DNA of 64,000 bases from Romanomermis culicivorax (Eukaryota > Nematoda > Enoplea > Mermithida > Mermithidae): the NCBI GenBank assembly GCA_963922205.1, contig CAWUHX010000112.1:496001-560000 (forward strand), written 5' to 3'. Shown here in pieces: positions 45,147 to 64,000 of this stretch (position 1 is its first letter; every line of letters begins with the position of its first letter). Position numbers and translations under genes: made by a program. The notes beneath the pieces were generated by a model. It made no database searches. It worked only from the letters and a program-made list of their open reading frames with translations, and was not told the DNA's origin.

Positions 45147-45415
45147 CAGTGTTTTTTTGCGCCAAAACATGGTTATTGGCACACAATAATTGGGAATGGC
45201 ACAAAAAATTTTGAGCGTTTGTGCCAATTGGCACAAATTTTTGGAATAATTTAAGGCTAAATTTCCTCGATTTTTTAGTCATTTTAGGGGCTTAAAAAGC
45301 AAAATTTTGTCGGCGCTTCGCGCCGAGTCAATGTTAGCTAACTTTCTTAGCATATTTGGGAATAATTCAAGTTTACAGTATTTTCGCATTTTTCATGGTA
45401 AACCCGTTTAGGGGG

Positions 45416-46368
45416 TTTTCCATGATGCTGGACACGATTCTGAACTCGAAACAAGTGGCGCTCATGAGCTCCAGTGGTCAAACATTCAAAAAACACAAAT
45501 TATGCAAATGAGCAAAAGTAGGCAATTTTCACTATTAAAATTGCATTAACCGGAAATATAACGGCTAAATTTTATAAGTGGGTTTCCGGCCTTAAGCCTA
45601 ATTATTGTATACGAGTTGTTTGTTAATTTGGAGCATGGATTTCTATGACCAGTGAGTAGAAATTTATTTTTCCTTTAAAATTTTCCTTAGGCTTAGGCTT
45701 AGGGTACAGCTCTCCCAAATGAAGTTGTTAGTTAAAATAGTATCAAGGGTCTTAAGTCCATAGGCTGGTGGACCATGTTCGATTCTTGAAGTAGGTAGGA
45801 TTTTTCCGTAGTGACAAGGAGTATGTGACATGTATGCAGGATTTTATGCAGATGAGTTCCTGAATGCCACGAGCCCCTGGATTTTTGAACTGATCTGAAT
45901 AGCTGGCATCTTGAGGAGTACGAAAATGCCACTTTGGACCATAATTGGGAAGAGAACCGACTTGTAAAAAAATTTCAATTTAACCTCTATATGCCCAAGC
46001 CTAAGCCTGAACTTAAGCCTAAGCCATAGACAAAGCCTGAACCTAAGCCTAAGCCTGAACCTAACCCTAAGCCTGCACCTAAGCCTAAGCCTAGACCTAA
46101 GCCTAAGCGTGAACCTAAGCCTAAGCCTAAACCTAGGCCTGAACTTAAGCCCAAGCCTAAGCCTGAACCTAAGCCTGAGCGTGAACCTAAGACTAAGCCT
46201 GAACCTAAGCCTAAGCCTGAACCTAAGTCTACGCGTGAACCAAAGTCTAAGCCTGAACCTAAACCTAAGCCTGATCTTAAGCCCAGTGTTTTTCCGACTT
46301 TTTTTACCACTGGAGTTCATGAGCGCCACTTATTTCGGGCTCAGAATCGTGTCCAGCATCATGGAAAA
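45416..46368. repeat. Inverted-repeat unit carrying telomere-like arrays
   Basis: The left arm 45416-45482 and right arm 46303-46368 are inverted copies of about 66 bp (both include CCATGATGCTGGACACGATT and GTGGCGCTCATGA). Inside the left arm a short TTAGGCTTAGGCTTAGGG run lies at 45687-45704. Inside the right arm is a 290-bp CCTAAG-type array in the opposite orientation. Lower similarity may extend the arms outward. It is non-coding. Confidence 0.75.
45992..46284. repeat. Degenerate (GCCTAA)n array, TTAGGC-type
   Basis: About 290 bp of six-base units, mostly CCTAAG with regular CCTGAA variants, giving a higher-order CCTAAGCCTAAGCCTGAA pattern. On the minus strand this is TTAGGC, the telomere repeat of many nematodes. 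Frames crossing it encode Arg/Leu or Gly/Leu repeats and are artefacts. Confidence 0.85.
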
Positions 46369-46994
46369 CAACCAAATCAGGTTGTGTGTGAAAAATGAGA
46401 AAAAAACGACAAAAAACTCCACAATATCGCTTCAAAAAAGCATTAAAAATATCCATTTTACCCTCATTTAATCCCCCATAAATCGGTGACCGATGTTTGC
46501 TGCCATCTAAACTAAAGTTAACCTGATGTTTCAGGCCTCCCTCAACATAGCCAGACTATAGCCGTGTATTTCTATTATCGCAACAGACTCTGTGATTGTC
46601 AATGAATAGTGAGTGAATAGAAATTGTAACTTCTCACATTCATTCCGTAGGATTTGGTACCGAAATTTTTATTCTTGGTTTTTGATTCGAACAGAAAAAT
46701 TGATATTGTTGGCACAATTTTTCAACTAAAAGTTTACGCGACGCGAGTTCATCCTTAATTTAATCTTTATATCGTTGTAGGAAGAAATTCGTAGCCAAAA
46801 ATTGAAGAAAATATCAACTTCCTAACAAATTCTATAAAAATATCTGATTTCTCGCAGCATTCGATTTCATTCCGAATCATTATAAAAAATCTTGTCTCAC
46901 TGACGTGGTTAGACAAATAGAGTAGGCACGATTTTTATGCAAATTAGAGCGGAAAAAGTATCTTTATAGTTATGTTTTTATCGAACTTTTGGCA

Positions 46995-47568
46995 CAGGCC
47001 AGTATTTAGAGAAGGAACGGGGGGAGGGGGATTCCTCCCCCGCTAAATTTTTTTAGAAAAAAATTTTCAGCAATGTATTTATACATCACAATTCGCAGAT
47101 TAAATTATTATATTTACACACTTTTAGTCAAATATAGAATTTAGGCCATACCTGTAATTGGGGGGAGGGAGGTTAGTGGGGGGAACCCACACCGCCAACT
47201 TGGTCAACCTTATACCCAACCACCCCCTCCAAAGTCGGAAAAATGGGGAAAAAAGGAAAAATGTGATTTTTTTGCCTTTTTTGGGAAAATTTTCGAAACT
47301 TTTTCGACTTTTTGAGGGTTTTTCGATCCCCTCCCCAACATTTTTTAAATGTTGGGACCCTCACCCCAAAATTTTGGGTTTACCCTCCCCCCCCACCCAA
47401 CTAGTCGGACGGAATCTTACAGGTATGATTTAGACACTAATCCAAGCACACAAAACTAACTGAAAATATAGTCGTCTTTAAATGATTTTGATTTTCTTTT
47501 TATTCAGTAAATTCTAAAAAAATTTTGGAAAATTCCCCCCTTTTTGGAAAATCCTGGATACGGGTATG
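46995..47568. mobile_element. Element N, hAT-like, inside family H
   Basis: The ends CAGGCCAGTATTTAG and CTGGATACGGGTATG are weak inverted repeats. The perfect 8-bp duplication TTTTGGCA (46987-46994 and 47569-47576) defines the limits. G-rich and C-rich subterminal runs mirror each other. It contains the family B variant at 47147-47427. Confidence 0.75.
47147..47427 (+). mobile_element. Family B variant, 281 bp
   Basis: It runs from CATACCTGTAATTGG to ATCTTACAGGTATG. Flanks ATTTAGGC (47139-47146) and ATTTAGAC (47428-47435) match at 7 of 8. The interior differs from the other B copies (an added middle section), so it is a subfamily. Confidence 0.8.
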
Positions 47569-47865
47569 TTTTGGCATATAAATTTTTATAGATTTTCAGT
47601 ATGTTTTAAGGGTGAAACAAATCTTTGTGCCACTGGTACAAATTTTTTGGCCCTTTGTGCCAATGGGCACAAATGTCCGTGCACAAAAAAAACTGCGGCC
47701 AACCCTGTCTGTAAGAGCCACTGCCTACTGGTCGGAGCTCTTTACAGGTGTGAAAATTTATAATACATAAAATGTTGATAATTAAAAGCTAATACCGCGC
47801 GCTACAATAATATAGATTTTTTTGCCTGACGAGCTTCTATACAATAATATAGAAAGATTAAGGTA

Positions 47866-48775
47866 AAGTGGGGTAACTTTGGCCACGGAGTAACTCTGGT
47901 CAATTTCACTTCAAACATCGCCGAATTTTTCCACAGTAAGATATGCAGATACAACTTGACATACTAATGTCTAAGTGATCAGTGCATGTTACTGTCAAAG
48001 GAAATTGAAATCCAAATAAAATTGAGAAATTTGTGGGTCAACAAAGTTGAAATTTTTTTTTATGAAAATTTTCAAATTGAAAAAAATTTGGGTTTCACTC
48101 ATCCACTGGTCTCAAAACTTTCACTAACGATTAAGTGTCTTTAGAGAGTTTCCCTTTTCAGTTTTGTATAAAAAAATAAATACCCATTATCGAGAAAAAA
48201 AATCGGTCCAAAAGCGGGAAACTTTGGCCAGTTGGCGGGAAACTTTGGTCAGGGTGGGTAACTTTGGTCATATTATATTTTGGCGGATAACTTTGGTCAA
48301 ATTAAAATTTTTTGTGCCACACATTTTTCTACTTATAATAATTTGATCTTACTTCTTTTTCAGACGAATTATTTTATCTTGTATATAATTTTCATCGATT
48401 ACGTACGTCACAATATGGTCAGGCATTACAAAAGGAAGCCAGATGTCCGCAGATACCTGACTAATTACTCAACAGAAGATCTCGAAAAGGCCATCGAGGC
48501 CGTTCGAAACGGGTCAAAAATTCGAACAGCAGCTCGTGTTTACAATACTCCACATGGGACATTACAAAACAAAGTAAACGCAAGGCATTCGGGATTGATT
48601 GGTCGTAAAACGTACCTCACAGCAGCTGAAGAATCGCTACTCGTCAAACTGGTCAAATCTGTCGCCGTCGTGGGCGTATCATTCACAAAAGATTGCCTCA
48701 TTACAATAATCGACAGTTATCTACATGAAAACAAGCCGGAACTCATAAATGTATTGAAATCGCGCTGGAAAATTT
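47866..48775 (+). mobile_element. pogo-type DNA transposon, 3'-truncated
   Basis: It starts AAGGTAAAGTGGGGTAACTT, the same terminus as element L. Subterminal AACTTTGGTCA units repeat at 47880-47910 and 48215-48300, probably transposase-binding sites. It carries the N-terminus of a pogo transposase (48415 onward). The right end is missing. At about 48775 it switches to sequence also found at 37575. Confidence 0.75.
48415..48775 (+). pseudogene. pogo/Tigger transposase N-terminus (psq-type HTH)
   Basis: From ATG 48415 the frame reads YSTEDLEKAIEAVRNGSKIR, then AARVYNTPHGTLQNKVNARH. This is the Pipsqueak-like helix-turn-helix that binds pogo termini. It continues with a KTYLTAAEESLLVKLV segment typical of the second DNA-binding domain. 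About 120 codons survive. The DDE catalytic domain is lost at the junction with other repeat DNA near 48775. The open frame continues into unrelated sequence to 48903. Confidence 0.85.
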
Positions 48776-48942
48776 TCACTATTTTCCATTTTATAGTGTA
48801 TAAAAATGCATTTCCGGACAGGAAACCCTATAACCTAATCAAAAGGGTAGTCAGGCATCAAGTTGCACCATGCAACTTAACAGAAAAAATTTGGTTGCAC
48901 TGACCGAAGAAATTTGGTCGCTGTTGTGCAAAAAACCCGGTG

Positions 48943-49600
48943 TCAGTGTTTTTTTGTGCACGGACATTTGTGCCAATTGGCACAAAGGGCCAAAAAAATT
49001 TGTGCCAATGGCACAAAAAATTTTTTGAAGCCTAAAAACATACTAAAAACCTTTAAAAAGTTTTATGCCTAATGTTTGATAAAAACATAACTTAAGATAC
49101 TTCCGCCGCACTAATTTGCATAAGAATCGTGCCAACTCTATTTTATCTAAGCACGTCAGTGCAATAAGAAAAACTGATGGAGAAAGCGGTTTATACCATG
49201 CCTGTAAGACCTCCGACCAGTTGGGGGGGGGGGGGGTAAATCCGAAATTTTTTTTTTGGGGGGGGGGGTAGAAAAAAGTCGAAATTTTTCCCAAAAAAGG
49301 CCAAAAAACATACACTTTTTTGAAAATTTTTTTAATTTTTTCCAAACTGGGGGGGGGGGGGTTGGAGGGGAAATGATTTTGGGTACTGGGTTGGCCAAGT
49401 TGAGGGGCCCCCGCCCCCCCAAGTACAGGTATGGTTTACACGATTCGAAAAGAAATCGGATGCTGCGAGAATTATTTGTCAAACTTAAATGCATACTCTG
49501 TTATAGACCACCCAGATATGACATTCAACTTATGGGTTAATTTATACTGCTTTTTGAATTTTGTGTTGCAGATAATTCCAAATGTATAATTCTTGGAGAT
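48943..49600. mobile_element. Family H fragment with a family B insertion
   Basis: It begins CAGTGTTTTTTTGTGCACGG followed by the TTTGTGCCAATTGGCACAAA palindrome and stays collinear with 10890 onward for some 250 bp before the family B insertion at 49197. Where it ends after 49433 is unclear. Confidence 0.55.
49197..49433 (-). mobile_element. Family B MITE, copy at 49.2 kb
   Basis: The 237-bp element runs from CATGCCTGTAAGACC to AAGTACAGGTATG. Flanks GTTTATAC (49189-49196) and GTTTACAC (49434-49441) match at 7 of 8. Long G and C runs may include sequencing-length errors. Confidence 0.8.
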
Positions 49601-49629
49601 TTTCATCTACCATCTTTGGGTATTACTGC

Positions 49630-50823
49630 CATACCTGTAAGACCTCCGACCAGTTGGGGGGGGGGTAAATCCGAAATTTTGGGGGGGGGGGGTAGGAAAA
49701 AGTCGAAATTTTTCCCAAAAAAAGGCCAAAAAAACATACACTTTTTGGCAAATTTTTTCAATTTTTTCCCAACTGGGGGGGGGGGGGGCGGGTTGGGGGG
49801 GGGGGAAATGATTTTGGGTACTGGGTTGGCAACCCCCCCCCCCCCAAGCACTGTTTTTTTCCCCAAATCGTGCTTTTTCGGGAAAAAAAATTCGGAAAGG
49901 GGAAAAAAATTTTGGGCTCTTTCCCCATTTGGGGAAGAAAATTTTGGGGATCGGATACAGAAAAGATGCATTTTGGTGCATTTTAGAAGGTCATAATCTC
50001 AAAATTTCCCGGCGCTTCGCGCCGATTATAACTTTAATAATCATTATTATGCATTACTAACCCCTAGCGCGGCTTTTAGCATGTCTACTTTCATTTATCA
50101 TATAATCTATAATAGTTTTCATCATCTTGAACGTATTATCTCATGTTTTCATTGGTAATCTTCAATATTTTATCATGATATTTAATGAAGATTCGCATTT
50201 TTTCCTTTTGAGAAAGATCAATACGTCAAGTCTCTAGGAAATATCTTTCGGAAATTTATACTCTGCTTACTCATATATTTTCGACCAAGTATGAGAGTTT
50301 ACAAATAAATTAGGCTGGTTTTAAAATTTTTCGAGTAAAATTCTAGAAATTACGGCTTTTGAACACAAAATTCAAATCTACTTCTTGAAATAAACGTTCG
50401 GAAAATTGATTTTCTAGCGTCGCAGAATATCAATACTCAAAAAATTTTTCCGGCGCTTTGCGCCGGAAAGATTAACATCCCTTTTAGGTTCTCACTTGTC
50501 AACATGGAGGACTTAACCATCGATTTCTCATGTAATTCAAAGTCATTATGCTTTTGGATAGTTTGCTTGAAAGTTTGTTCCAATGCTTGTAGATTAAACT
50601 TTGAACTCGAAAATTTCAATTTTTTCCTCAATTTTGATGAATTAACGGGTCTAAAAACACCAGAAGGCTTGAAAAAGCCCAAAAACACGTAAATAAAGCG
50701 TCTGTGAGCATTTTTAAGCGAAAAAAAACGACTTCGGGAAAATGGGGAAAAAAATTTTGATCCCTTTCCCCATTTGGGGAAAAGGCCCGGGGGGAAAAAA
50801 AAGTGCCCCCAAGTACAGGTATG
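49630..50823 (-). mobile_element. Family B copy split by element E
   Basis: The left part 49630-49848 and right part 50806-50823 make one B unit. Flanks ATTACTGC (49622-49629) and ATTAGTGC (50824-50831) match at 7 of 8. The split is element E at 49849-50805. Confidence 0.82.
49849..50805. mobile_element. Family E hAT-like element, 957 bp
   Basis: The termini CACTGTTTTTTTCCCC and GGGGAAAAAAAAGTG are inverted. A perfect 8-bp duplication CCCCCAAG lies at 49841-49848 and 50806-50813. It contains two GGCGC hairpins (about 50010 and 50450) and mirrored CCCCATTTGGGGAA segments near both ends. Non-coding. Related fragments lie at 22008-22530, 35050-35430 and 43856-44011. Confidence 0.88.
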
Positions 50824-50989
50824 ATTAGTGCAGCTGGCGCACACTAGCGTTATGATGATAAGTGTATACACAGTATATTTATCAGATCATCAATTACTGT
50901 AGCAAAAAGTACAACTTGCTCATCAAACTTGAAAATAGCTACAAACGCTAAAAACGCGTCAAACGACAGGGACACCACCTTGGGAGGCT

Positions 50990-51320
50990 TGGGCACGACC
51001 ACACGACCCGCGGGAGGTGAAGGGGTGAGGCGACGCACATATTCCTGCAAATTGCGCTGTTTCTTGGAATCTTTTCAACAATTTGATTAAAATATAGACT
51101 ACTAAAATGAGCGTCAGGTGCGACACATTGTGAGGGGCCAGGCCACATGCCCCGCGGGATGTCGAGGGGTAAGGCGCCGCACATATTCCTGCAAATTGCG
51201 CTGTTTCTTGGAATCTTTTCAACAATTTGACTAAAATATAGACTACTAAAATGAGCGTCAGGTGCGACACATTGTGAGGGGCCAGGCCACATGCCCCGCG
51301 GGAGGTCGAGGGGTAAGGCG
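50990..51320. repeat. 144-bp tandem repeat, about 2.2 copies
   Basis: A unit containing CGCACATATTCCTGCAAATT and GTGCGACACATTGTGAGGGG recurs with a 144-bp period (starts at 51034 and 51178). Partial units lie at both ends, each with an ACCCGCGGGAGG or CCCGCGGGA core. It may be part of the LTR or promoter of the downstream retroelement, but that is unproven. Confidence 0.8.
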
Positions 51321-52160
51321 ATTTTTATTTCAATTGAAAATTTTGATTTTAATTGAAAATTGCATTTCTCTGTTTTTGTCTTTTATTGATTTTGTTTTTT
51401 GTCAAGTTTTTTCACTTTTTGATTTATTTTTTTGCTTTTGTCTTTTTTGTCGATTTAAATATGGTTTTTGTTGTCAAGTTTTTTGTTTTTTTATTGAAAA
51501 AGTTCGAGATGTCACACAATTATGTAATTTTTGGGAAAACACACGGCAAGCTGGCCATTGAACATTTTTCCACAATTTTTGAACGTAAAATTGGACGTTG
51601 ATCCGAAAATTGAAATTTATTCGACCACTAGAAGAAAAGAATTGAAATTTAAAAAAATAAAAAAAATAAAAAAATAATAAAAAGACTTTCAATAAAAAAT
51701 TTTTTCAATTCAAGAAAATGAAAACAGAAAATAAATACAAACGAAAAGCAAGTGCAGCAAAAAAACCATAAGATTCATAACAATGCACAATTTTTCGAAA
51801 AAAAAATTTCAGAAAACTAAAGACGTAGAAATAAACTACAAAAAAGCAATAAAAATTAAAAAATTACGAAAAAAACATTTTTTGACGTAAAATAAACCAC
51901 AAAAACAAATAAAATCCAAAAAATCAAAAATTCCATCATGAACTCTAATTTTGCAATCAAAAAAAACAAAAAATCAACGACAAAGATAACAAAAAAATAA
52001 AACAGAAAAAAAAATTTAATCATAAACTATAATTTTCAAGCCAAAACACTAAAAAACTCGACAAAAGAACAATAAAAAACACAAAAAAGAATAAATAAGA
52101 AAAAATTTAAAAAAGCGAAAAGCAGGTAACACAACAAAAATGTCAGCATAAACTAAAATT
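51321..52160. other. Strand-asymmetric T-rich then A-rich DNA
   Basis: About 51321-51500 is strongly T-rich. About 51600-52160 is strongly A-rich with repeated AAAAAAC and AATAAA words. No gene. It could be part of a retroelement LTR or low-complexity intergenic DNA. Confidence 0.4.
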
Positions 52161-52882
52161 TTTTATTGAAATGTTGGGCACCCTGTTGATGCCAATTCGT
52201 GTGGGGAAATCGACATGCAAATCGACGAAAGGGACGACCAGCGGCCCAGACATTTGCATAGAAATGGAGCGCCAAAGAAAGACCGAAAGTGATAGTGAAA
52301 ATCATTGTTCACTATATTCTCGTTTTTTATTATATTTTGGCCATATTGCTGGTGTCCCCAAAATACAATTTTCCCAGCAACTCGTTTTGTTCACAAATTA
52401 TTTACTGTGGTATACCCACATTCTTTTGCATATTTCGTCGGACTTATTGTTTAATATATTTGTTTATTCATTTAGATTATTCGCATCGACGAAGGCGGAG
52501 GGCCAGAGGCCCAGACGCCGGCTTACATCAGGTAAGCTTTGGGAAACCCCTTACGGGTTATACCCAAGTAAGTTTATCCCTGAGGGGATTCCTTGTCTCT
52601 GCTAGGAGACTGCGGAGGTCCTTGGTAAGGCCCCCGTATTTAGGACAAAGTTTATCTTTGTTGTTGTAGGTCTGGGGATAACCGGACTGTTGCACTATCA
52701 CCGAGGCTTAGCCAAGGGATCAGTTCTAACAGGTCAGTTCAGACCCAACCTTTTCTTATGCCTCTTAAGGAAAGACCTGCACAACAAGTGGTGGCTTTTA
52801 ACACCTTACCACGGAACTTCGTAGTCAGACTAGGAGAAAAGAAAATCCTCCAGGTTTCTACAGGAAGTTAGCAGGTTTCAAA
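52161..52882 (+). promoter_or_regulatory. Probable 5' leader of the plus-strand Ty3/gypsy element, with a candidate intron
   Basis: This is G+C-richer DNA directly upstream of gag. A consensus donor (CAG then GTAAGC at 52532) and a pyrimidine-rich acceptor (TTGTTGTTGTAG ending at 52669) outline a possible 138-bp leader intron. Another acceptor-like TTTAG lies at 52471-52475. I could not identify the 5' LTR end or a primer-binding site with confidence. Confidence 0.4.
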
Positions 52883-55543
52883 ATGCCTAATGAAAGGACA
52901 CCAAGAGGTAATACTTTACACAGATCACCACCCAGAGTGGCGAGTGCTGGGAATCTTGTCAATTTGGGAGACGGAGATCAGCAACGGCATGCTGCTCCGG
53001 ACCCAGTGATCCCAGATCAAACTCCCGCGAGGGTTCAACCATTGCAACAAAATGCAATGCATTTCACGCCACAAGATGCAGGCGTACCAATTGACCGACC
53101 ACCAGCAATTGCCATCGATCCGCAGGAGGCAGGCCCGGCGAATCCGAACCCAGACGCCGATGGACCGCCGCAGCGAAATTTTAAAAGGTCACCGCCACCA
53201 AAGGTCGAATTAGCAGGACCGAAAAGGGACGTCCTTACACCCGAAATTCGACCAAATTTGGAAGAAAGGGACCCCGAAATCGATCAACGGTTAGAGAGGA
53301 TTCCCCAGGAACAAGAGCGATTCCAACCGCAGGAAAGAGCTCCCGAGATGTCCAATCAAGAGTTGGCGACGCAGCTACGCGAATTGAAAGGGACCGTCAA
53401 AGCCTTGTTCGACATAATCGCGAATGCCGCCACAGAGGACAATAAAAGGGAAGCCGGCAGGCGCCGACAGGAGCCGGATAGACAGGTTAGACCATGTAAT
53501 AGGGGTGCAGAAAGAGACAACCGTCTCGCTGCTGAAATGAATGCAGGCGCAGGGCCTAGTAATAGGCCCGAATATGATGAAGGGCAAAGGCTTAACTTTG
53601 AGCCCAAAAGTTGGAGAGGTCCAGCTAGAGATCTTCGATTCGAAGGAGCTGAGCAATCAGCAGACTTCAGGAATCAAAATCAGATAGCTTCGCAGCATCC
53701 AACTTTAACTAGAGTGGTCTATGATGGTAGAGGAAATATAGTTGATCCAAATACCCTTAGACCAGATCAATTGGCATGTTTCCCATATAGGGATTACAGG
53801 TTTGACAAAGACAATATGCCATCATATCAAGGAGGTGTACCACCTCAACGAGATCCAAATAGGGTTATGCTGCAATCCCTGAACTCTGATCTTGATCCAG
53901 TATTAACAGCAGCTTATGATCAGAGGGAAGTGCCATCAAATAATTTGGCACAAGAGATTGTAGTCAGGAATATCGTTAAAGGTGTGTTACCCAAACTTTT
54001 AGATGAGGGTATGGTAAATCAGCAGGTGCTTAGCTTCTTAACAGCACTTGAAGGGGAATTCTGTAGGGATACACCCAAATCAGCCAAGTATGAAGCACTG
54101 CTGAGGCTTTCTAAAGGTAGACCGAAGGCTGTTGCAGGAGACAACATGACCTATAGGGAGGCCAGGAGAGCCATCACAAATGTCTTTGCACCTGAATGTA
54201 ACCTGGAAATGTTAACCAGGGAATTATTTGAGATCCAACAAAGACCCAATGAACAGGCCGTAGAGTTTCTAAAAAGGGTCAGCATACTAGTGGAACTTGT
54301 AAAAGGTGATTTGGACTATCAGTCTAAACAGAGACTGATCATTGACACCTTCATATATAAGAGTGACCCCACGTTCCAGTCTGAACTTAAAAATTCAAAG
54401 CATACCTTTAGAACTTGGTATGATCTAGCAGTTGAAGTTCATGACATTGAACGAAGATATAGAAATGCCTTTCAGAGATATGGACCTAAGGGTACACAAC
54501 AGGATCCTATTGTAATTAATGAGGTAGGTATGCCTAGTGGCCATGATCCTGAAATTGCCGTAGTTGCTAGGAACCAGTCAGAAGGATATCAACAACGCCA
54601 GAGACAAAAGTTTCGGCAACCATATCAAACTGTAGGTAATCAGGTACAGGCCCAAACCCAAAGGTCAAGGAGTGATTCTCCTGAGATAGAAGAGATTCCA
54701 GTTCGGGAAGCCCCTAGGGCTCAGACCGAAAAAGATAAGAAAGAATCTCTTCTATTGAAAATTTCTAAAGAGATGGTACAACTGGTCGAAAGGTTCGACC
54801 AGCTCCAGCAAAAGGTTGATAACAGGCAAGCGGAAAATCGGTCTGATGTTGCCATACCTAGTACCAGTCAGGGAGGTCAAGTTTCCCGAGATCCGACAAA
54901 GCCATGGTGTGAGTTCCATAAGAACATAACACATAATACTGCAGACTGCAGGACATTGAGAGTATTGTCCGAGCGCAGGAGCAGAGGCAGAGCCGGCTTC
55001 CCTACCTTCAACAGGGGAGGCTTCAACACTTTTGCTAGAGGTAACTATAGAGGAAGAGGATGTTACCCTAATGCCAATTTCAACAGTAGAGGCAGAGGTG
55101 CTTATAATATAGGCTATTCAGGTTATCAGGATAGCCATGAAAATTATCAACAGAATTCCGATTACAATGAATTTCTGGAGTTCAAAAGACAAAAGGAGCT
55201 GCAAAAGCAGTTCCAACAGATGCAGCAATACCAACAGCAGGCTGCATTACAGCATCCTCAGCCACCGCAGGCTATTACGGGTCCGACTCAGACTCTTCAA
55301 CAGGGTCAATACTCAAATCAGCCACCCCAGAAAGATTATTCGAGTGTAATGGTTGCAAGGCAATCACAAATGAGTCCTTTGGATGAAGTAAATCAGAGAG
55401 TAAACTGCCCAAATGTTGTATTAGGTAGCATTGTTCAAATGAATGCAATTGCACCACAAATGGTAGTACCATCCGTAAAAGTAGTAAAGAGGGGCACACC
55501 AGCTAGTCCTCAGGAACAACATTTGCTGGATACGTACCCCTGA
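52883..55543 (+). CDS. gag: Ty3/gypsy Gag
   Basis: Gag is the structural polyprotein that assembles the virus-like particle and binds the element RNA. The 886-codon frame is Pro/Gln-rich and disordered for about 300 residues. The middle part (about 330-560) resembles retrotransposon Gag capsid regions. A Cx2Hx4Hx4C zinc-knuckle variant (C676, H679, H684, C689) follows, then an RGG-rich nucleic-acid-binding stretch and a Gln-rich C-terminus. The frame closes with a single TGA at 55541-55543 and the protease continues in the same frame. The chosen ATG has the context AAAATGCC after the leader. Length and intactness suggest a young copy. Confidence 0.9.
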
Positions 55544-56119
55544 ACAGCCCCATTCCACATTGAGGTTGTTATAGGAGGTCGTAAGACATTGGCTTTAATT
55601 GACACAGGAGCTCAGTGTACTGTTATGTCGGCTAAGTTCCTGAAAGAAACTTTGGGCCCGGATTACACTGAATATCCGAGGATATTAAATGTTACTGTAG
55701 CCAATGGTAAGACAGTCCAAGCCCATGGGTATATCCAATTTAGGATGGATAGATTGTGTCGACAGTTCCCCGTTAAAGCAACTGTAATTCCTGAAGCAGG
55801 TGAAAATGTTATTGTGGCTACAGACTTTTTGGCTCATCCTCAGGTAGGAGCCATAATAGATTTCAGGAATAGGACGATGATGCTCAACAACCGTCAACAG
55901 CGGATATACGTGACGCCGGACCAGCCCCAATCGAATTGTGGAGAGGTCATGACCACGAGCGCCGCGGAATCCACGATGAGTGCCGCCGACCAATACCAGC
56001 CAAAGATTTGTCTGCTAAAGGTTTCAGTGCCAGTGGTGAGTGTGAATCCCATCTACTTACCTAGTGGTACTGATATACTTGTGAGAGCAAAACTTTGGGA
56101 TAGGCGAAAATCGCCTTAA
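55544..56119 (+). CDS. pro: Ty3/gypsy aspartic protease, in frame after the gag TGA
   Basis: After the gag TGA the same frame continues with PFHIEVVIGG and LIDTGAQCTVM (Asp at 55601-55603), the catalytic D-T/S-G of retroelement proteases, which cleave Gag and Pol. There is no convincing ATG, so it would be made by readthrough of the TGA or is separated by a mutation. The frame stops at 56117-56119. Pol resumes one frame later, so at least one shift lies between them. Confidence 0.85.
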   Translation, partial: TAPFHIEVVIGGRKTLALIDTGAQCTVMSAKFLKETLGPDYTEYPRILNVTVANGKTVQAHGYIQFRMDRLCRQFPVKATVIPEAGENVIVATDFLAHPQVGAIIDFRNRTMMLNNRQQRIYVTPDQPQSNCGEVMTTSAAESTMSAADQYQPKICLLKVSVPVVSVNPIYLPSGTDILVRAKLWDRRKSP

Positions 56120-56120
56120 T

Positions 56121-56414
56121 GGAATCATAATAGAGTCTGAAGAGAATGAAGAAAGGTTCCACATTGATAGTACCATAGTAGATGGTACAAAAGATGATTT
56201 TGTTGTTATGGTATCCAACAACACAGGATCAGGATGCCATTTGAAAAGAAATCAAATAATTGGCCATACTAATTCAGTGTTGTGTGATACTGATAACCAA
56301 GATCAACTCAAGAGGAAGATAGTTGAGGATCTGGAGAAGCTGCAAACTTGTGCAGTTCAAGCTAGACCTGAAGCTCCTCAATCGGATGAGAAAGCATTCA
56401 AGGAAGCTTTGTAA
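56121..56414 (+). pseudogene. Protease-RT connector, open frame ended by TAA
   Basis: In the frame of pol the sequence is open upstream of the pol ATG (NGIIIESEENEERFHIDSTI and onward) until a TAA at 56412-56414, only three bases before the pol ATG. It links protease to RT in the ancestral polyprotein. The +1 frame change near 56100-56120 and this TAA are most simply disabling mutations, although programmed recoding cannot be excluded. Confidence 0.7.
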
Positions 56415-56417
56415 AAC

Positions 56418-59400
56418 ATGCTGGCTAAATCCAACATACCATCAAAGCAATTGGAACAAGCTCTACAATGTCTCGCAAAATATAGAGACGTGTTCAGCTT
56501 GCCCAATGATCCTCCGACTACCACACCCTACCTGACCTGTAAAATCAATACAGGCGATGCAGCCCCTGTGGCAAAAAGGTGCCACAGGACTGCTATAAAT
56601 TTACGGCCACATGTTCGTGAGCATGTCCAAGATATGCTCAAAAAGGGCATAATAGAGCCATCAAAGTCGCCTTGGGCAGCTCCGTTATTCCTTGTAGGTA
56701 AAAAGGATGGTACCAAGCGACCAGTAGTGGACTTTAGGGGTATAAACGATGTTACCAAGGATGATAAGTATCCCATTCCTAGAATGGATGACTATCTAGA
56801 CTGTTTTGGTAAAGCCAAATTTTATACCACCTTAGATCTCAAATCAGGGTATTGGCAAGTGCCAATGGATGAAGAAAGCAAAGAAAAAACTGCTTTCATA
56901 TGCCAAGAAGGGCTGTATCAATTTAAAGTCATGCCCTTTGGCCTAAAGAATGCGCCAGCCGAATTCCAGCATATGATGGAAAGAGTTTTGCATCCATATG
57001 TTTGGAAAATCTGTCTAGTTTACATAGACGATATTATCGTGTTCTCAAATACGTTTGAGGAACACCTAGTTAATCTAGAGCTAGTCCTACAAGCTCTAAG
57101 AAAGGCTCATTTGACCTTGAAGCCGGAGAAGTGTGAATTCCTGCCTGAGAGAGTTCTTTTTTTAGGACATATCTTAAATTCGGATGGAGTTTCCCCAGAT
57201 CCGAAAAAGGTCAAAGCTATTAATGATTTCCTATTCCCAGAGTCTAAACATAAACTGCAAAGGTTTTTAGGTATGTTGCAGTGGTGTAAAAAGTTCATAC
57301 CGGGTTTGGCTAAACACGCTGAACCATTGTATAAATTAACTGGAAAGAACTGTGTTTGGGAAATCACGGAGGTTCACCATCAGGCTTTTAGGAGCCTGAA
57401 AGAAGCATTATTGTCTGTGCCATTCCTTAGGTATCCAGTTTTGGATGGGTCTGCGGACTTTGTCCTTCAGACAGATGCCAGCAGAACGGCACTAGGAGCA
57501 GTCCTTTACCAGGAGACCAAAGCAGACCGCTGGGTAATTGCTTATAATAGCAGAATTTTAAAAGGGGATGAGAAAAAGTGGTCAGCCGCGGAAAGGGAGT
57601 GCTTGGCAATAGTGTATGGCTTAAAGTTATACAAGCACTACTTAGTAGGTCATAGAGTGATCATAAGAACTGATCACAAACCTTTGTTGTCAATGAAGGT
57701 CAATGCCATGACCAATGGTAAGTTGAAGAGATGGTACTCATTCATCTCTCAGTTCAACCATAAGCTAGAGTATGTGCCTGGAAAACAAAATGCCATGGCA
57801 GACTTTTTGTCCAGGATGGATGAACCAGACGATCAAGCGGAAAAGATACCGCCAAAATGGGAACACATGTTCTCAAAGGATAAACGAGAGTCTGAAAATC
57901 TGAAAGATCTCGAAGCACAGCTAATTGAGAAAAAGCATCTCAATTTGGTAAAGAGATTCAGAATTCTGACAGATCGGAATCCTGAAGACGGTACTCCGTT
58001 ATATCCGGAGCCAAAAGGTAAGAAGAATCAGAGGACTGATATGAGGCCGAGATTCACCCAGATTTATCCAGAAGATTCTGAGGGTGATCCAGAATCAACC
58101 CCGCCTGCAGACTTGGTAAATGCCGTAACTACAAGGAGCATGGCGAGAGAAGCGGAGAAGAGTGATCAGGCTCAGATCCAGCCTGATGGCAATCAGGGTA
58201 ACGAAAAGGTAAGTAAGGGAAACCAGGAAAAAAGTAAGGAAAAAAGAGTTACCTGGTTATACCCAGGAAAAGAACAGGAGTTTACTCTGGCAGATCCCAA
58301 AGAAAATGAATTGCCAAAAGGGTCAATTAGAGACGATCTTATGGCCCTCTTGCAGAGAAAAGATGAGGTATTACGACCATACTTTGATAGATTGGGTCCA
58401 AATGGGACAACCAAGTATCACAGTGGATTTTATATCCAAAATGAAGTGCTATACCGCAAAGCCGGACAGGGATCGAATGATCAGGTGGTCGTCCCATCCT
58501 GCCTTAAGGACAATACTTTGCACCAGTACCACGGTGCCATAATGATGACTCATCAGGGGTTCAAAAGGACCCTTGCTATGATTAAAAAACGGTTCTGGTG
58601 GCCTGGAATTGAAAAGGATGTCAGGCACTGGATCAAGTTTTGTCCAGTTTGTCAAATGGCTAATCAGGGAAACACGGAAATTCCTCCACTGATACCAATT
58701 ATTCCACAAGGTCCCTTTGACATAGTATCAGTGGATATTGTGGGTATTTCTCCACTCAGTGAGAAGAGACCCTATGTCATAGTCTTTCAATACTATTTTA
58801 CAAAGTGGGTTGAAGCTGAACTGATCCCGGATCAGTCAGCTAGCACCATTGTAGATACTTTTCTACAAGCTATTGTATTTAGGCACGGGACTCCACGGAG
58901 ACTACTCAGCGATAGAGGAGGTTGTTTTACCTCAGATCTGATGAAAGAGATCTGCAAGTTACTAGAGTGTCAAAAAATTTATACAACAGCGTACCATCCA
59001 CAAGGAAATGGTATGGTAGAAAGGTTCAACCAGACACTGATCAAACAGCTCAGAAAGGTGGCCATTGAGGAAAAAGATAACTGGCCAAGATACTTGAGAG
59101 CCGTGGTGTTTGCTTACAATGCCACACCACATGCAGCCACGGGGCAATCCCCATTTTCATTGCTTAGAGGTCACGAGGCAACCTTCGGGTTAAACTTATC
59201 GAAAGCATATGATATTGTAATGCCTGACAGTAATGCAGAGGCATACAAATTTGTGTTGACCAATCATTTAGTCAACCTTTACGAGGATATTGCCAAAAAT
59301 ATCCAGAGTGCTGCCGAAAAATCGAAGAAATACTTCGATAAAAAGTCCAAGCAAAATGGGTTCAAGAAAAATGATTGGGTTCTGCTCAAAGTAGACAAGC

Positions 59401-59714
59401 AGAAAAAATTAGGACTACCATGGTCGGGTCCCTTCATAGTTACGGACATTTCGCGAGAAGCGGAGAACGTTGTCACCATTGTACATTGGGACGACCCGCT
59501 AAATCTCCAAACAGTTTCAATCAGCAGGTTGAAACATTTTCGTTACGAGACCACTAGGGTCTTGCCGCGAATAGCGCGAGCCAATCAGGACGCGCCACAT
59601 GAGGAAAATACGTCACTTTCCAATATGGCACAAACAGTTACGACTGGAGCGCCAAACCAAATGAAATCATTTGGAAATTCGCTCAAGGCGAATCTATGCG
59701 CGATCTCGCGCTGA
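56418..59714 (+). CDS. pol: Ty3/gypsy Pol: reverse transcriptase, RNase H, integrase
   Basis: The 1,098-codon frame has all catalytic motifs. RT: LDLKSGYW (D140), MPFGLKNAPAEFQ, YIDD (202-205). RNase H: QTDAS (D353), AERE (E394), TDHKPL (D419). Integrase: H2C2 finger (H702, H712, C742, C745), then the D773, D832, E868 triad with D,D-35-E spacing. A GPF module (SGPFIVTD) precedes the C-terminus. The RT, RNase H, integrase order is diagnostic of Ty3/gypsy. It copies the element RNA to DNA and inserts it. The protein is well preserved and clearly related to the decayed pol at 30587-32722. The clade was not determined. Confidence 0.93.
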   Translation: MLAKSNIPSKQLEQALQCLAKYRDVFSLPNDPPTTTPYLTCKINTGDAAPVAKRCHRTAINLRPHVREHVQDMLKKGIIEPSKSPWAAPLFLVGKKDGTKRPVVDFRGINDVTKDDKYPIPRMDDYLDCFGKAKFYTTLDLKSGYWQVPMDEESKEKTAFICQEGLYQFKVMPFGLKNAPAEFQHMMERVLHPYVWKICLVYIDDIIVFSNTFEEHLVNLELVLQALRKAHLTLKPEKCEFLPERVLFLGHILNSDGVSPDPKKVKAINDFLFPESKHKLQRFLGMLQWCKKFIPGLAKHAEPLYKLTGKNCVWEITEVHHQAFRSLKEALLSVPFLRYPVLDGSADFVLQTDASRTALGAVLYQETKADRWVIAYNSRILKGDEKKWSAAERECLAIVYGLKLYKHYLVGHRVIIRTDHKPLLSMKVNAMTNGKLKRWYSFISQFNHKLEYVPGKQNAMADFLSRMDEPDDQAEKIPPKWEHMFSKDKRESENLKDLEAQLIEKKHLNLVKRFRILTDRNPEDGTPLYPEPKGKKNQRTDMRPRFTQIYPEDSEGDPESTPPADLVNAVTTRSMAREAEKSDQAQIQPDGNQGNEKVSKGNQEKSKEKRVTWLYPGKEQEFTLADPKENELPKGSIRDDLMALLQRKDEVLRPYFDRLGPNGTTKYHSGFYIQNEVLYRKAGQGSNDQVVVPSCLKDNTLHQYHGAIMMTHQGFKRTLAMIKKRFWWPGIEKDVRHWIKFCPVCQMANQGNTEIPPLIPIIPQGPFDIVSVDIVGISPLSEKRPYVIVFQYYFTKWVEAELIPDQSASTIVDTFLQAIVFRHGTPRRLLSDRGGCFTSDLMKEICKLLECQKIYTTAYHPQGNGMVERFNQTLIKQLRKVAIEEKDNWPRYLRAVVFAYNATPHAATGQSPFSLLRGHEATFGLNLSKAYDIVMPDSNAEAYKFVLTNHLVNLYEDIAKNIQSAAEKSKKYFDKKSKQNGFKKNDWVLLKVDKQKKLGLPWSGPFIVTDISREAENVVTIVHWDDPLNLQTVSISRLKHFRYETTRVLPRIARANQDAPHEENTSLSNMAQTVTTGAPNQMKSFGNSLKANLCAISR

Positions 59715-60140
59715 ATTTTTTTTTAATTATGTACATATCTCGCGCGCGTAGGTACTAACTTTAATTAAAAATGTATTATTTTGTAATATTCATCGCGTTT
59801 ATGTAGTGTTTGTATTTATTTTGTAAATTTTTCATATTTATATCAGACTTTGGGAAAAATTCTTCGGAATTTTAGACCAAAGTGACAACCCAAAATATTT
59901 CCGATATTTTTTCCAAAAAATTAATTTTCAAATTTTTCATTTTTTCTAAAATCAAACTATAGCTACCCCTGCTTATCTGAATTCTAAACTTCCATCGGAA
60001 GGAAGAAGTAAAATATTCCCCGAACCGCGATAAAAAGGAAATTAGCAGAACTGCTAAATTAAATTTTTTCAGCGTGGAAAAATTTTTTAAAATTTTAACA
60101 AATTTATTCAAAAGAGAAAAACATTTCGAAACGAAAAGAA
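59715..60140 (+). other. Spacer between pol and ORF3
   Basis: AT-rich, no frame of note. A short GCGCGCG patch follows the pol stop. It corresponds in position to the spacer in the minus-strand element. Confidence 0.5.
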
Positions 60141-60261
60141 ATGGGAAAAGGCGCGCGGAACCGCCAACAAGCTCCAACGCGGGAGTGGTCGCACACAGAG
60201 CGCCACGTCAAATATGGCAGGGCCCAGCACCGCCAAGATAATCGTTTTTTCTTCATCGACG
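60141..60261 (+). CDS. Candidate first exon of ORF3
   Basis: A frame starts with ATG at 60141 and encodes a small basic segment (MGKGARNRQQAPTREWSHTE). It runs to a consensus donor GTAAGT at 60262. Splicing to the acceptor TTTAG at 60939-60943 would leave codon phase 1 and restore the exonuclease frame exactly. That frame has no upstream ATG of its own before the catalytic motifs. This is an inference from splice signals and phase. An alternative is an in-frame read-through of a 45-bp intron to a stop near 60365. Confidence 0.5.
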
Positions 60262-60943
60262 GTAAGTTTCGAACTTATTTTTATCAAATATTCTTGGAAA
60301 CCGCAGGTAATGCCCAGAAGTCACTGGAAGACCAGCTCGGCGCCCCAAAGGGCAGACGAGGTTAGAACTTAGAGGGAACGAAAAATGGGACTACTGAGAA
60401 GCGGAAGCTCGAAGCCAAGCAGGGAATTTCCAAATTTGGAAATATACCTGATACCACCGAGAGCTATATGATTCAAGGGAAACCTAGAACCTTGGGTTCA
60501 GCCCGTTCAAGTTTTATCATTCAAAAAATTTATTAAAAATTATTTATTTTCAAATCAAATCAAATTATATCACTTTTTCGATATCTAAATTATTAAAAAT
60601 TATCAATCTCGAGCGCTATAAAAATTGTAAATACAGCGCCATAAATGGAGTGTAGTTGGTCGCTCAAGCAGCTGGTCAGAGATTGGTGTCCGATCAAGTG
60701 GTGGACAATCCGATCAGGTCTACCCTCATCAACATATAGAGGTAGCAAGGGTAAGATTTGGTAAGGTGTTAGTTGCCTACCAGCTCAATGTTTGTATATC
60801 AGTGGCTCACCTAACAACCCGCACTAAATTTATTTTCTGCGAAACTTAACCCGCTTTGTGTTGTGGTGCTGGTGTAGTATAGACCCGAAAATGCGCTGAA
60901 AAAAGGGGAATAAACACTGAAATTAATAGTATCTTATGTTTAG
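60262..60943 (+). other. Candidate ORF3 intron, 682 bp
   Basis: Donor GTAAGTTTC and acceptor ATGTTTAG. A TATA-like CTATAAAAA lies near 60616 and could instead be an internal promoter for ORF3. The acceptor side has an in-frame stop about 60 bp upstream (near 60880), which is consistent with splicing. Confidence 0.45.
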
Positions 60944-63900
60944 ATTATAACGTCAAAAGGGCCGTGCGAATCCATGAACTGGATCAGTGGTTTAAAGCCA
61001 CATTTGGGTACTGGCCGGCTAATCCCAAGGAACCAAAATTGGTAGACATCCGGAAAGTCAGCCAGACACTCCACTTTATCCGAGAAGTATCAATCTTCAG
61101 AGGACAACCAGTTTGTGGATTCGATGTCGAAAAAGTCAACCAGGATAAAGTCGCCACCTTGTTTAAAACGAGAGAGGTCGACAATCCTATGGGAAAGCAG
61201 TTTGCCCGATACGTGAGCTTCGCTTTAACAAATGGTCAAACGTACGTTATTGATACGACGTCAATGATGATCAAAGAATGGACCAGCCTCCACGACTTTT
61301 TGAATTCCGACATGCTCTTCGCCGGATATTCGGTATTGGAGGACTTGGTAAGTATCTATAACGTATGTGGTGCAGGGCGAGACAATAAGGACAGAGACAA
61401 AACTGTGCCCTTACGGGAATTTCTTAGAAAGACCAAGGGTCGATACTTTGATTTAGACCGTTTTGCCCTAACCATGGTAGGGGTAAACCTGGAGAAAAAA
61501 TGTTTTCAGACAGGTATCTGTCCCGAAACCTTTCGGTTAAAGGGACTGTTCATGGAATTCTATCTGATAGATGTGGGCCCCTATCAGTATGACTTTTCAT
61601 TAAAGGCGAACCGTGATCGGTTTGCCAAAAGAGGTATATTGCCGGAAGAGCTTAGGTACGCCACTCTAGACGCATATTACTCCTTATTGGTCATGTTTGC
61701 CGCGATTCACTATGGCATGGCCGATCAGCTGCTCATGCAAATGCAGATTTTCGACCGTGACAAGGTTGATCCCAAACAGATCAATACCGTTGCCCTACAT
61801 TTTTATCAACAATACTTAATGATTCCGGGCAACGTGAATAGAGAAATGGGGCTAGGCACCCCAGTCATGGAAACCGATCAGGTACAGCCAAATATGGTCT
61901 ATCACATGATGAAATGTGAAATGTATAACCCTTGGGCCGTACAGATGCAGGGAAATAACAGCGGTTATTATACCGCACCCACGGAGTGTAACCCTGTGCG
62001 TCCTCAGGGAGTTCAACTACCAAGTGGTTTTTATCCACTGCTCCCAAGAGATAACAAACCGATGAAGGACGATGGGTACACTACAGATAGTGATCCCAAC
62101 GAAATCCAGGACGTCCAGATACCAGACTGGGTTAACATTTCGAAGGATATCTTGGAAAATCTCAAGTCAGGTGAAACCTATTGGGATTTAGACAGTAAGA
62201 TTTCTTTGACTTTATATGAGAACGCCAAGCTATACTGGCAACAGGCCGGGAAGCCCGATCAAATTCCTGAAGAGGTGTTTTCCGCAAACAACCACTACCC
62301 AGTGGGTATCGAAGGTCATAGACAGGCCTACAAGACCAATTTTTATACGCCAAACTTGGCAAAAATTTCAGGTATGTTAGATGAGCGAAACTTTGCGGAG
62401 TTAGAGGTCATCTGTAAATTTATGCTATTGGCCTATCATTTGGCATGGCCTCACTTGAGAGCGGAGTGCGATTACGAAACTAGCGCTTTGCTGAACTATA
62501 ACTTTTTAAACAGTTATACCAGAGAAGGACAGGAGATGATAAAGCGAATGTCCTGGAAGTCAGGCCACCGCCTGGCTTATTATTTAGAACTAGCAGCAAT
62601 GCTACCGCCGTCGGAACCCCGCTTTCCATCTAAAAAAGGGGTATACGCGTGGCAAAACCGGTTCGGATTTGTCCCCTTACGATTTCGAGAAGCCGAGGAA
62701 ATATTGCAAATTGGTGACGACAAATCGTTATTGAAGGACGGAGCCTACAAGGTAAACCCTTACTTTTATGTAACTTTTTACTACGTAGGCTTCGAGACTT
62801 TGACGCCGGGACTGCGGTATCCGATGACGGAAAACGCATCGCCGACCGATTACCCAATTACGTACGCACTGAGAAATCCGCTCGAGCTCAGACCGGAGTT
62901 TGTTACCAAAAGCTTCCGGGAGAGAACAATTGCTTCAGAGATGCCCGGGTATACATTAACTTATACCCCAGCCGGTGAGTTAATATCTAAGGTACCGGTA
63001 AATCGTCCCTCTACTTCCCAAACGGCGCAAGCCGGAGGGACGGGACAGGTTAAAACGCAGCCGCAAGCACCAGCGCCAGTGGTCAAAGCTACACAACCAG
63101 CTTTGGACACTGCTGCTACGCAAGCAGCTGCAGTAGTAGTCGTGGTGCCGCCGCCAATGCAACCAGCGGTGGCACAGCCGACTCAGGTAGCTCAGATACA
63201 GCAACCAGCCGAGCCTGAGCCAGAAGTTGTCACCATTATGCAATCGGTACCTCCGGCACCAGCTGTGTTACCAGCTAAAGTAAAACAGCTCTTGCCGAAG
63301 ATACGAAATTCAGACTCTGAGTCCAGTTCAGAGGAGGATGTTGAAGAAGAAGAGGAAGGTGAAATTCTGGAATCTGAGGGCCAGACATCGGAAAATAAGG
63401 ATGCGATGGAGGCCAAGACTCAGAAACAGGCTATTGAGGAGGAGAAAATCCAGACTCAAATTGATGAAGCAGTGACTAAGATGTCCGGAATTGATGTCAG
63501 ACTGGAAAAGATGCAGGAAGCATCCCAGGAGATACCTGTGAAGGCCAAAGATCCTAAGGATCACGACAGACAAGCGAAGCACGAGGCCCTACAGGCCAAA
63601 ATTCAAGAACAAAAAAGGCTGACGCAGCAGGAATTCCTGCGTCAGAGGGCAATTCAGAGGAAGCTGAAGGAGCAGGCATTAGCCGATGACAGCTCAGATT
63701 CAGCTATTGCAGCAACAGAGCTGATGAAGAGGAGAAGAATTGCCGAGGAAGGTATTCCTGGAATTTATTCCCCAGATAAGGTTCAGCAGATGTTAGCTGA
63801 AGGTATGTCGGAAAAATTTATCCGGCACTTGGCCAAAGAAAAGGTAAGGCGCAGGAAAAGGATAGGTAAGGCCAGACGACGCAGACTTGCAGCTCAAGAT

Positions 63901-64000
63901 CAGCAGCAACAAGGAGCGGCCGCCACCGGTTCCGAGAACGACGCCTACGATACAGCTGAGGAGACCACGACCCCACAATATTCGACGAGTCAAAAGTCGA
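60944..64000 (+). CDS. Retroelement ORF3: DEDDy 3'-5' exonuclease-like protein with long disordered tail (continues past the window)
   Basis: The frame is open for about 1,018 codons to the right edge with no stop. With the proposed first exon, residues 60-300 carry the signature of DEDDy 3'-5' exonucleases (the RNase D/WRN-exonuclease fold, two-metal nucleases): ExoI CGFDVE (D101, E103), Exo[12 protein letters not shown] (D174), Exo[14 protein letters not shown] (Y279, D283). All four acidic residues and the Tyr are present. A helical region follows (for example [16 protein letters not shown] near 62425), which is also found in the fossil ORF3 on the minus strand. After about 62990 it is Pro/Ala/Gln-rich, then acidic ([11 protein letters not shown]), then Gln/Lys-rich coiled-coil-like, then Arg-rich ([13 protein letters not shown]). 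It lies directly downstream of pol on the same strand. Substrate and role are unknown. Confidence 0.8.

Follow-up and report, generated by a model that had tools for sequence, protein, structure and literature searches.

Third open reading frames (ORF3s) coding for DEDDy exonucleases have been described in bdelloid rotifers, where the long terminal repeat (LTR) elements Juno and Vesta, and the Athena retroelements, carry them, with acquisition on at least two occasions (Rodriguez, Kenefick and Arkhipova 2017, PMC5408684). The DEDD motif is altered to DEED in the rotifer ORFs, and ORF3 variation showed no deviation from neutrality, as measured on env- and GDSL-type clones, a set that did not include the DEDDy ORFs. 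The same paper discussed a role resembling that of mut-7 as well as one in processing the 3' ends of RNA, placed WRN, one of the top structural relatives, among those possibly acting on single-stranded DNA, gave Maelstrom and EXD1 as inactive DEDD relatives retaining RNA binding, and noted that LTR-retrotransposon ORF3s are typically made from spliced messages. A DnaQ-like exonuclease is among the accessory domains known to Morozov et al. 2019 (PMC6338049), and CERV, from the Caenorhabditis elegans element Cer1, is translated from a spliced mRNA and required for the export of genomic RNA (PMC10309623). Here, we analyzed a 64,000-nucleotide window of a 359-Mb, 595-contig nematode genome (C112:496001-560000; positions below follow window numbering), which contains a Ty3/gypsy element with a third ORF bearing DEDDy motifs. 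An earlier note on this DNA had known of no described lineage of LTR retrotransposons with an ORF of this kind, a statement that Juno and Vesta correct.

Results

A third gene within a Ty3/gypsy element

The last 12 kb of the window is a multi-copy Ty3/gypsy LTR retrotransposon (Table 1). The domain order of this group, i.e., gag, protease, reverse transcriptase (RT), RNase H, and integrase, was present, together with an LTR pair ending in TG..CA and a target-site duplication. The 3' LTR was located 2.2 kb beyond the window end, at L009:6219-6833 (window-equivalent 66219-66833), and the pair was 98.5% identical (616-nt alignment including one shared flanking A, against L009:6218-6833). A second copy, on C132, had LTRs 99.2% identical and the target-site duplication TGGT. 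The pol frame matched RVT_1 (3e-37), RT_RNaseH (4e-30), Integrase_H2C2 (1.9e-18), and rve (9.4e-13) in Pfam. In the window copy, gag and pro are divided by an in-frame stop, and pro is followed by both a frame change and a stop before the RT frame. Directly 3' of pol, on the same strand, an open frame extended from 60883 through the window edge to L009:5475, with 1,530 codons from stop to stop. Since the 3' LTR lies beyond the window, this frame, ORF3, is inside the element; a blastn comparison of window 44000-64000 with the 3' LTR region detected the LTR only at 52171-52786, and none between pol and ORF3. The earlier note had placed an element-borne frame with ExoI, ExoII, and ExoIII motifs on the same strand directly after pol, between the integrase and a 3' LTR to be sought past 64000, and had named an intervening LTR among the observations that would speak against it. 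The placement proved correct, and the frame of about 1,000 codons that it had read up to 64000 proved real but incomplete, continuing past the window.

The first in-frame Met of the 60883 frame is residue 103, downstream of the ExoI motif, and an ExoI-containing protein therefore needs an upstream start. A splice model beginning at the ATG at 60141, a start already given in the earlier note and followed in predicted exon 1 by a conserved GT donor, resolves this. The predicted product has 1,568 amino acids, with phase 1 at every junction and a first predicted intron of 45 nt. The ATG, donors, acceptors, and exon lengths of the model were conserved in eight out of eight copies, five of which read 1,567-1,568 codons stop-free, and the other three had earlier stops (L005 at residue 1416, L007 at residue 627, and L008 at residue 146). 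Moreover, one copy of a second Ty3 family (family B, see below), with an ORF3 about 43% identical, contained a similar exon 1 (..RQNNRYFLVDG^gtaag vs. ..RQDNRFFFIDG^gtaag) and an exon-3 acceptor in matching phase. The ORF3 message is predicted to be spliced, and exon 2 could be skipped.

In spliced numbering, the motifs are G-F-D119-V-E121 for ExoI, G-Y-S-V-L-E-D192 for ExoII, and Y297-A-T-L-D301 for ExoIII, and residues D119, E121, D192, Y297, and D301 agree with the D-x-E, D, and Y-x3-D pattern of DEDDy enzymes. No Pfam match was obtained for positions 61960-63000, and the relative L110 was 38% identical to the window ORF3 over frame residues 20-584. An Arg-rich cluster is found at residues 1027-1040, and eight arginine-glycine (RG) dipeptides are within the last 250 residues. 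The predicted protein is best explained as multi-domain, with an N-terminal DEDDy-type domain, a middle region, an Arg-rich cluster that may be nuclear-localisation-like or RNA-binding, a helical-looking C-terminal domain, and an RG-rich tail.

Relationship to DEDDy nucleases through intermediates

A PF01612 search of the genome returned 119 hits at E<=10. Weak matches in fetched frames of 1,232-1,398 codons corresponded to ORF3s of family B, which are approximately 38-45% identical to the window ORF3 and share all three Exo motifs; the four family B proteins scanned matched no Pfam family below E=0.05 other than PF01612, for which the E values of 6e-4 to 4e-3 did not reach the curated cut-off. 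Proteins from a further group of elements, type C, were clearly above that cut-off (L124, E 7.5e-11; L125, E 1.8e-11). Open frames of 608-610 codons accounted for 12 of the 119 rows, and those on C69 and C101 were read. When a type C profile (L125, L124, L111, and L119) was compared with the PDB, it matched the WRN exonuclease (2fbt, 8.6e-7) and a mut-7 homolog (7jw2, 6.4e-6), and 11 of the 12 rows at E<=1 were DEDDy-type nucleases, the remaining one being a D,D-dipeptidase. Some of these 11 were classed by the family to which we take them to belong, others by name, and 3cym by its RNase D match. A profile of the window ORF3 plus family B (A1) was then aligned with the type C profile (A3) by hhalign, giving a score of 56.5 (E 6.2e-7) with the ExoI, ExoII, and ExoIII regions in register; the maximum among 60 column-shuffled decoys was 23.2, and the reversed alignment scored 16.2. 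Family B and type C are thus the intermediates that tie the window ORF3 to the DEDDy nucleases, and its homology to them by transitivity is very probable. The DEDDy class assigned in the earlier note is upheld through these relatives, whereas the window protein on its own matched no profile of the class. Outside this genome, an IMG/VR scan with ORF3 returned 80 stretches that fit a pattern and 0 relatives, and tblastn of the exonuclease part against plasmids gave no match.

Purifying selection on ORF3

From 5,450 first-look candidates, 44 copies were scored, and 21 of them were stop-free across approximately 1,039 compared residues. The ratio of nonsynonymous to synonymous divergence (dN/dS, from dN and dS) was calculated by the Nei-Gojobori method. 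In the eight top-ranked copies, it was 0.20 for exon 1 (40 codons), 0.036 for the exonuclease domain, 0.078 for the middle region, 0.114 for the low-complexity tail, 0.156 for the C-terminal helical part, and 0.361 for the RG tail; the ORF3 intron, read in an arbitrary frame, gave 1.17. Because the ranking followed the ORF3 protein score, and the dN of the top-ranked copies is thereby biased downward, 10 copies were hand-picked from ranks 27-41 of the 44, and these together with the window gave 0.053 for the exonuclease domain vs. 0.060 for RT (one RT piece, L143, aligned over 506 bases only). For pol, nine copies gave 0.097 over the whole frame, 0.067 for RT-RNase H, and 0.054 for integrase. 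The exonuclease domain of the relatives showed values of 0.146 in family B (eight copies) and 0.12 in type C (four sequences). All five catalytic residues (D, E, D, Y, and D) were intact in 16 out of 18 distinct copies, and L132 had a stop within the domain. Judged by the dN/dS values, the intact residues, and the stop-free copies, the exonuclease domain is thus under a constraint similar to that on RT. The stop-free copies and the ratios of 0.036 and 0.053 also show that ORF3 is more than a chance frame.

The ORF3 intron at 60362-60943 showed a divergence of about 0.02 among the eight copies vs. about 0.10 at synonymous sites of the adjoining exon, and in the low-ranked copies dS was higher in the exonuclease domain (0.23) than in RT (0.15). 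Taken together, these two observations suggest that subfamilies have exchanged ORF3 in a mosaic fashion. We also considered whether this intron contains a constrained RNA structure and dropped the idea (fold z-score -0.90; no alignable family B intron match).

Exonuclease-like ORFs in other element families

The order of integrase followed by a DEDDy ORF recurs in other element families. In the family B copy that was read with its surroundings, a pol 66% identical to that of the window was found just upstream of ORF3. This ORF3 also resembles that of the window in its C-terminal parts (25.9% identity) and has a tail rich in RG; no family B LTRs were found in the pieces fetched. The window itself contains a second, decayed Ty3/gypsy element on the minus strand, at approximately 23.7-33 kb (RT 32689-32051, integrase 31756-30557), 49% identical to the 60-kb element in the RT-RNase H part and 44% in the integrase part. 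It has an ORF3-like exonuclease remnant at 29156-28560 (22.6%, E 3e-7), with the ExoII and ExoIII Asp apparently lost, and its LTRs were not found. Twelve loci were picked across the PF01612 ranking, from about rank 3 to about rank 87 of the 119 and excluding the weakest, and 0.5-1.7 kb upstream was read. A Ty3-type integrase match was present upstream on the same strand in eight (L151, L152, L153, L155, L156, L157, L160, and L161) and missing in four (L150, L154, L158, and L159), which could represent genes of the host, copies that are truncated, or a different spacing. The check proposed in the earlier note, whether such hits always adjoin pol, thus gave 8 of the 12 sampled hits rather than all.

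Type C was read at two loci, on C69 and C21. The C69 copy (C69:273025-280551; L128/L129) has 620-bp LTRs 99.84% identical, suggesting that it was recently mobile, a 4-bp duplication GGTG, and a site like a primer binding site. The long ORF before its exonuclease contains a zinc knuckle, RNase H (profile start missing), and an integrase zinc domain just under the curated cut-off, with no Pfam match to RVT_1, and the window pol aligned to it only from residue 357 onward (22.6%, E 3e-20). In a diverged member, on C21 (L161/L162), the same ORF segment (72% identity across residues 169-510 of type C) is at the expected RT position and showed no window-pol match at E<=1. Type C therefore appears to be a DEDDy-bearing type, LTR-flanked in C69, without a recognisable RT; its non-autonomy is not proven.

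Features and other observations

Table 1. Features of the element and its ORF3 in the window.
Feature	Positions	Strand	Details
5' LTR	52172..52786	+	615 bp, ends TGTTG...CAACA, target-site duplication GAAA
Putative primer binding site TGG...	52789..52806	+	Starts 2 nt after LTR
gag frame, stop to stop, RG-rich tail	52802..55543	+	Retrotrans_gag E=0.055, weak, below curated cut-off
Aspartic protease frame, stop to stop	55544..56119	+	PF13975 E=3.8e-8
pol frame (RT, RNase H, integrase)	56415..59714	+	Pfam matches
Candidate ORF3-leader splice acceptor TTTTTTCAG	60064..60072	+	T-run and CAG in 8/8 copies
ORF3 predicted exon 1, begins with ATG	60141..60261	+	ATG, length 121, GT donor in 8/8 copies; similar exon in family B
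54-nt predicted exon 2 of ORF3, perhaps an optional cassette	60307..60360	+	Phases match, length same in 8/8 copies
ORF3 predicted exon 3	60944..64000, on to L009:5475	+	Open frame and splice model
DEDDy exonuclease-like domain (ExoI, ExoII, ExoIII)	60944..61809	+	Motifs, relatives' profiles, selection
Conserved middle region, outside known families	61810..62960	+	dN/dS 0.078

An integrase zinc domain search of the genome gave 5,797 first-look candidates, 150 of which were scored. Downstream of the 3' LTR, frames at L009:7901-9508 may represent fragments of a long interspersed nuclear element (LINE) endonuclease and RT. Likewise, a 213-codon frame at window 48262-48903 may be a helix-turn-helix DNA transposase fragment. 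A tandem array with an 18-bp period occupies window 45954-46313, with TTAGGC-like sequence nearby. Five tandem units of TTAGGC had 25,431 overlapping exact matches in the genome vs. 7 for the reversed pattern, some of those listed being deep in contigs (C1:784080); we take such abundant TTAGGC repeats to be of the nematode type, and together with the predicted 45-nt intron they point to a nematode host. A query of the genome with the spliced leader SL1 RNA gave no match, and controls were equally empty, so this search was uninformative. The window produced nothing against Rfam at gathering scores or in a tRNA scan.

Discussion

On balance, we favor the explanation that this is a Ty3/gypsy element whose third gene encodes a spliced protein with an N-terminal DEDDy-type 3'-5' exonuclease. 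The product is likely to be an active metal-dependent enzyme, and there is a reasonable case that it works in trans, outside the Gag-Pol polyprotein, and mainly on RNA. ORF3 would be made from its own spliced mRNA and would trim RNA 3' ends. Its targets would be either host small RNAs or surveillance RNAs with the capacity to silence the element, or transcripts that the element itself produces. This role of RNA-directed accessory exonuclease is the one that we prefer, and the weights given to it and to its rivals are a matter of judgement.

Several results weigh against this explanation. The window ORF3 alone had no DEDDy match in Pfam, NCBIfam, or PDB sequences, the A1 profile retrieved nothing relevant from the PDB, and a single-sequence AlphaFold model of 460 residues was unusable, with a predicted local distance difference test score (pLDDT) of 33.7. 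When compared with an RNase D profile (A2), A1 gave a non-significant score of 21.5, inside the decoy range, and type C a weak one of 34.2 (E 9e-4); the A1 comparison was weak because the RNase D alignment was narrow, with seven sequences, i.e., E. coli and 6 of 80 loci, all close relatives of E. coli RNase D. A catalytic residue was lost in 2 out of 18 copies, both times in ExoI (D to N in L142; E to K in L148). The choice of RNA over DNA as the substrate comes from context alone, and type C, in which integrase-like sequence and exonuclease are kept with no RT match, fits equally well with an action on the ends of complementary DNA (cDNA).

For this last reason, cDNA-end maturation stays the main rival, serious although unlikely. 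The exonuclease would mature cDNA 3' ends together with integrase, removing the 2 nt beyond the LTR, RT-added nucleotides, or primer remnants, or would proofread for RT. In the window element, the C132 copy, and type C, 2 nt separate the LTR from the putative primer binding site, suggesting that cDNA ends need trimming, and the WRN-type homology points the same way. However, retroviral integrase removes 2 nt by itself, and ORF3 looks like a separate spliced gene, unfused to Gag-Pol, whose packaging into particles is not a given. Proofreading is hard to reconcile with elements lacking an RT to correct and would more naturally go with an exonuclease fused to pol, and RNA trimming is favored over it. 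An improbable alternative is that ORF3 is a regulator like CERV, binding unspliced genomic RNA in the nucleus and exporting it, with the exonuclease fold serving for RNA binding only. The predicted spliced third protein with its Arg-rich cluster and RG tail agrees with this idea, as do the role of the spliced CERV in genomic RNA export and the precedent of Maelstrom and EXD1, cited above from PMC10309623 and PMC5408684, respectively. Nevertheless, the catalytic residues are conserved in 16 out of 18 copies and between families about 43% identical, pointing to catalysis and making a non-catalytic role less likely, and the H, M, and G domains reported for CERV include no exonuclease.

The position after pol and the predicted spliced message, as for env, would also be expected of an env-like or capsid-like third ORF with fortuitous DEDDy motifs. 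This is highly improbable, because the profile link to DEDDy enzymes is far above the shuffles and the top 19-residue Kyte-Doolittle mean of ORF3 was only 1.61, giving no sign of a transmembrane anchor (no dedicated signal-peptide or transmembrane predictor was run); an env-like ORF3 was rejected for lack of a strongly hydrophobic segment. Scarcely credible is a host exonuclease gene beside the element, or a functionless chance capture. The four sampled PF01612 loci with no integrase in the 1.2 kb upstream may be host genes, but for the window family the LTR pair encloses ORF3, and a neighboring host gene was rejected; the location between integrase and 3' LTR, the 44 scored copies, the strong purifying selection, and the same order in family B also argue against it.

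A wider proposal is doubtful. The DEDDy ORF3 would be an old, standard part of a large Ty3/gypsy assemblage in this genome, constrained about as much as RT and retained even by types with no recognisable RT, acting as a MUT-7-type counter-silencing exonuclease or decoy against the host small-RNA pathway. If true, the exonuclease would be less dispensable to such elements than an RT of their own.

As to known systems, the MUT-7-type and WRN exonuclease domains (PDB 7jw2 and 2fbt) were matched by the type C DEDDy profile; they belong to host proteins, and the window ORF3 reached them by no direct match. The Athena/Terminon Penelope-like elements also bear an accessory DEDDy ORF, but they belong to a different class of retroelements, are endonuclease-deficient, reach 40 kb in length, and are located at rotifer telomeres (PMC6431247, PMC5408684). 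Cer1 is likewise a Ty3/gypsy element with a third spliced protein, splicing being predicted in our case; CERV has 517 amino acids and no reported exonuclease (PMC10309623), and exons 1-3 of its gene share the reading frame of gag, in contrast to the predicted start of ORF3 downstream of pol. Compared by description, Juno and Vesta are the closest, being LTR retrotransposons with an RNase D-like DEDDy exonuclease in a third ORF after pol. Among the papers listed by searches of the open-access literature, none was seen to report a DEDDy ORF3 in nematodes. Here, the host is a nematode with a TTAGGC-repeat genome, the copies are many, the motif is DEDD with Tyr instead of the DEED given for the rotifer ORFs (PMC5408684), and ORF3 extends over a large additional C-terminal part. 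In addition, one element type has no recognisable RT. The exonuclease dN/dS is 0.04-0.05, and the neutrality reported in rotifers was obtained from non-DEDDy ORF3 clones. Collectively, a DEDDy ORF3 in LTR retrotransposons was already known from rotifers, and what is new here is the apparently spliced gene, the strong selection, the presence in several families, and the types that seem to have no RT. With DEDDy ORF3s in several diverged Ty3 lineages of a nematode, and selection on the catalytic domain comparable to that on RT, what looked like an odd captured ORF appears instead to be a maintained enzyme, whose role in RNA 3'-end processing, anti-silencing, or cDNA-end maturation can now be tested.

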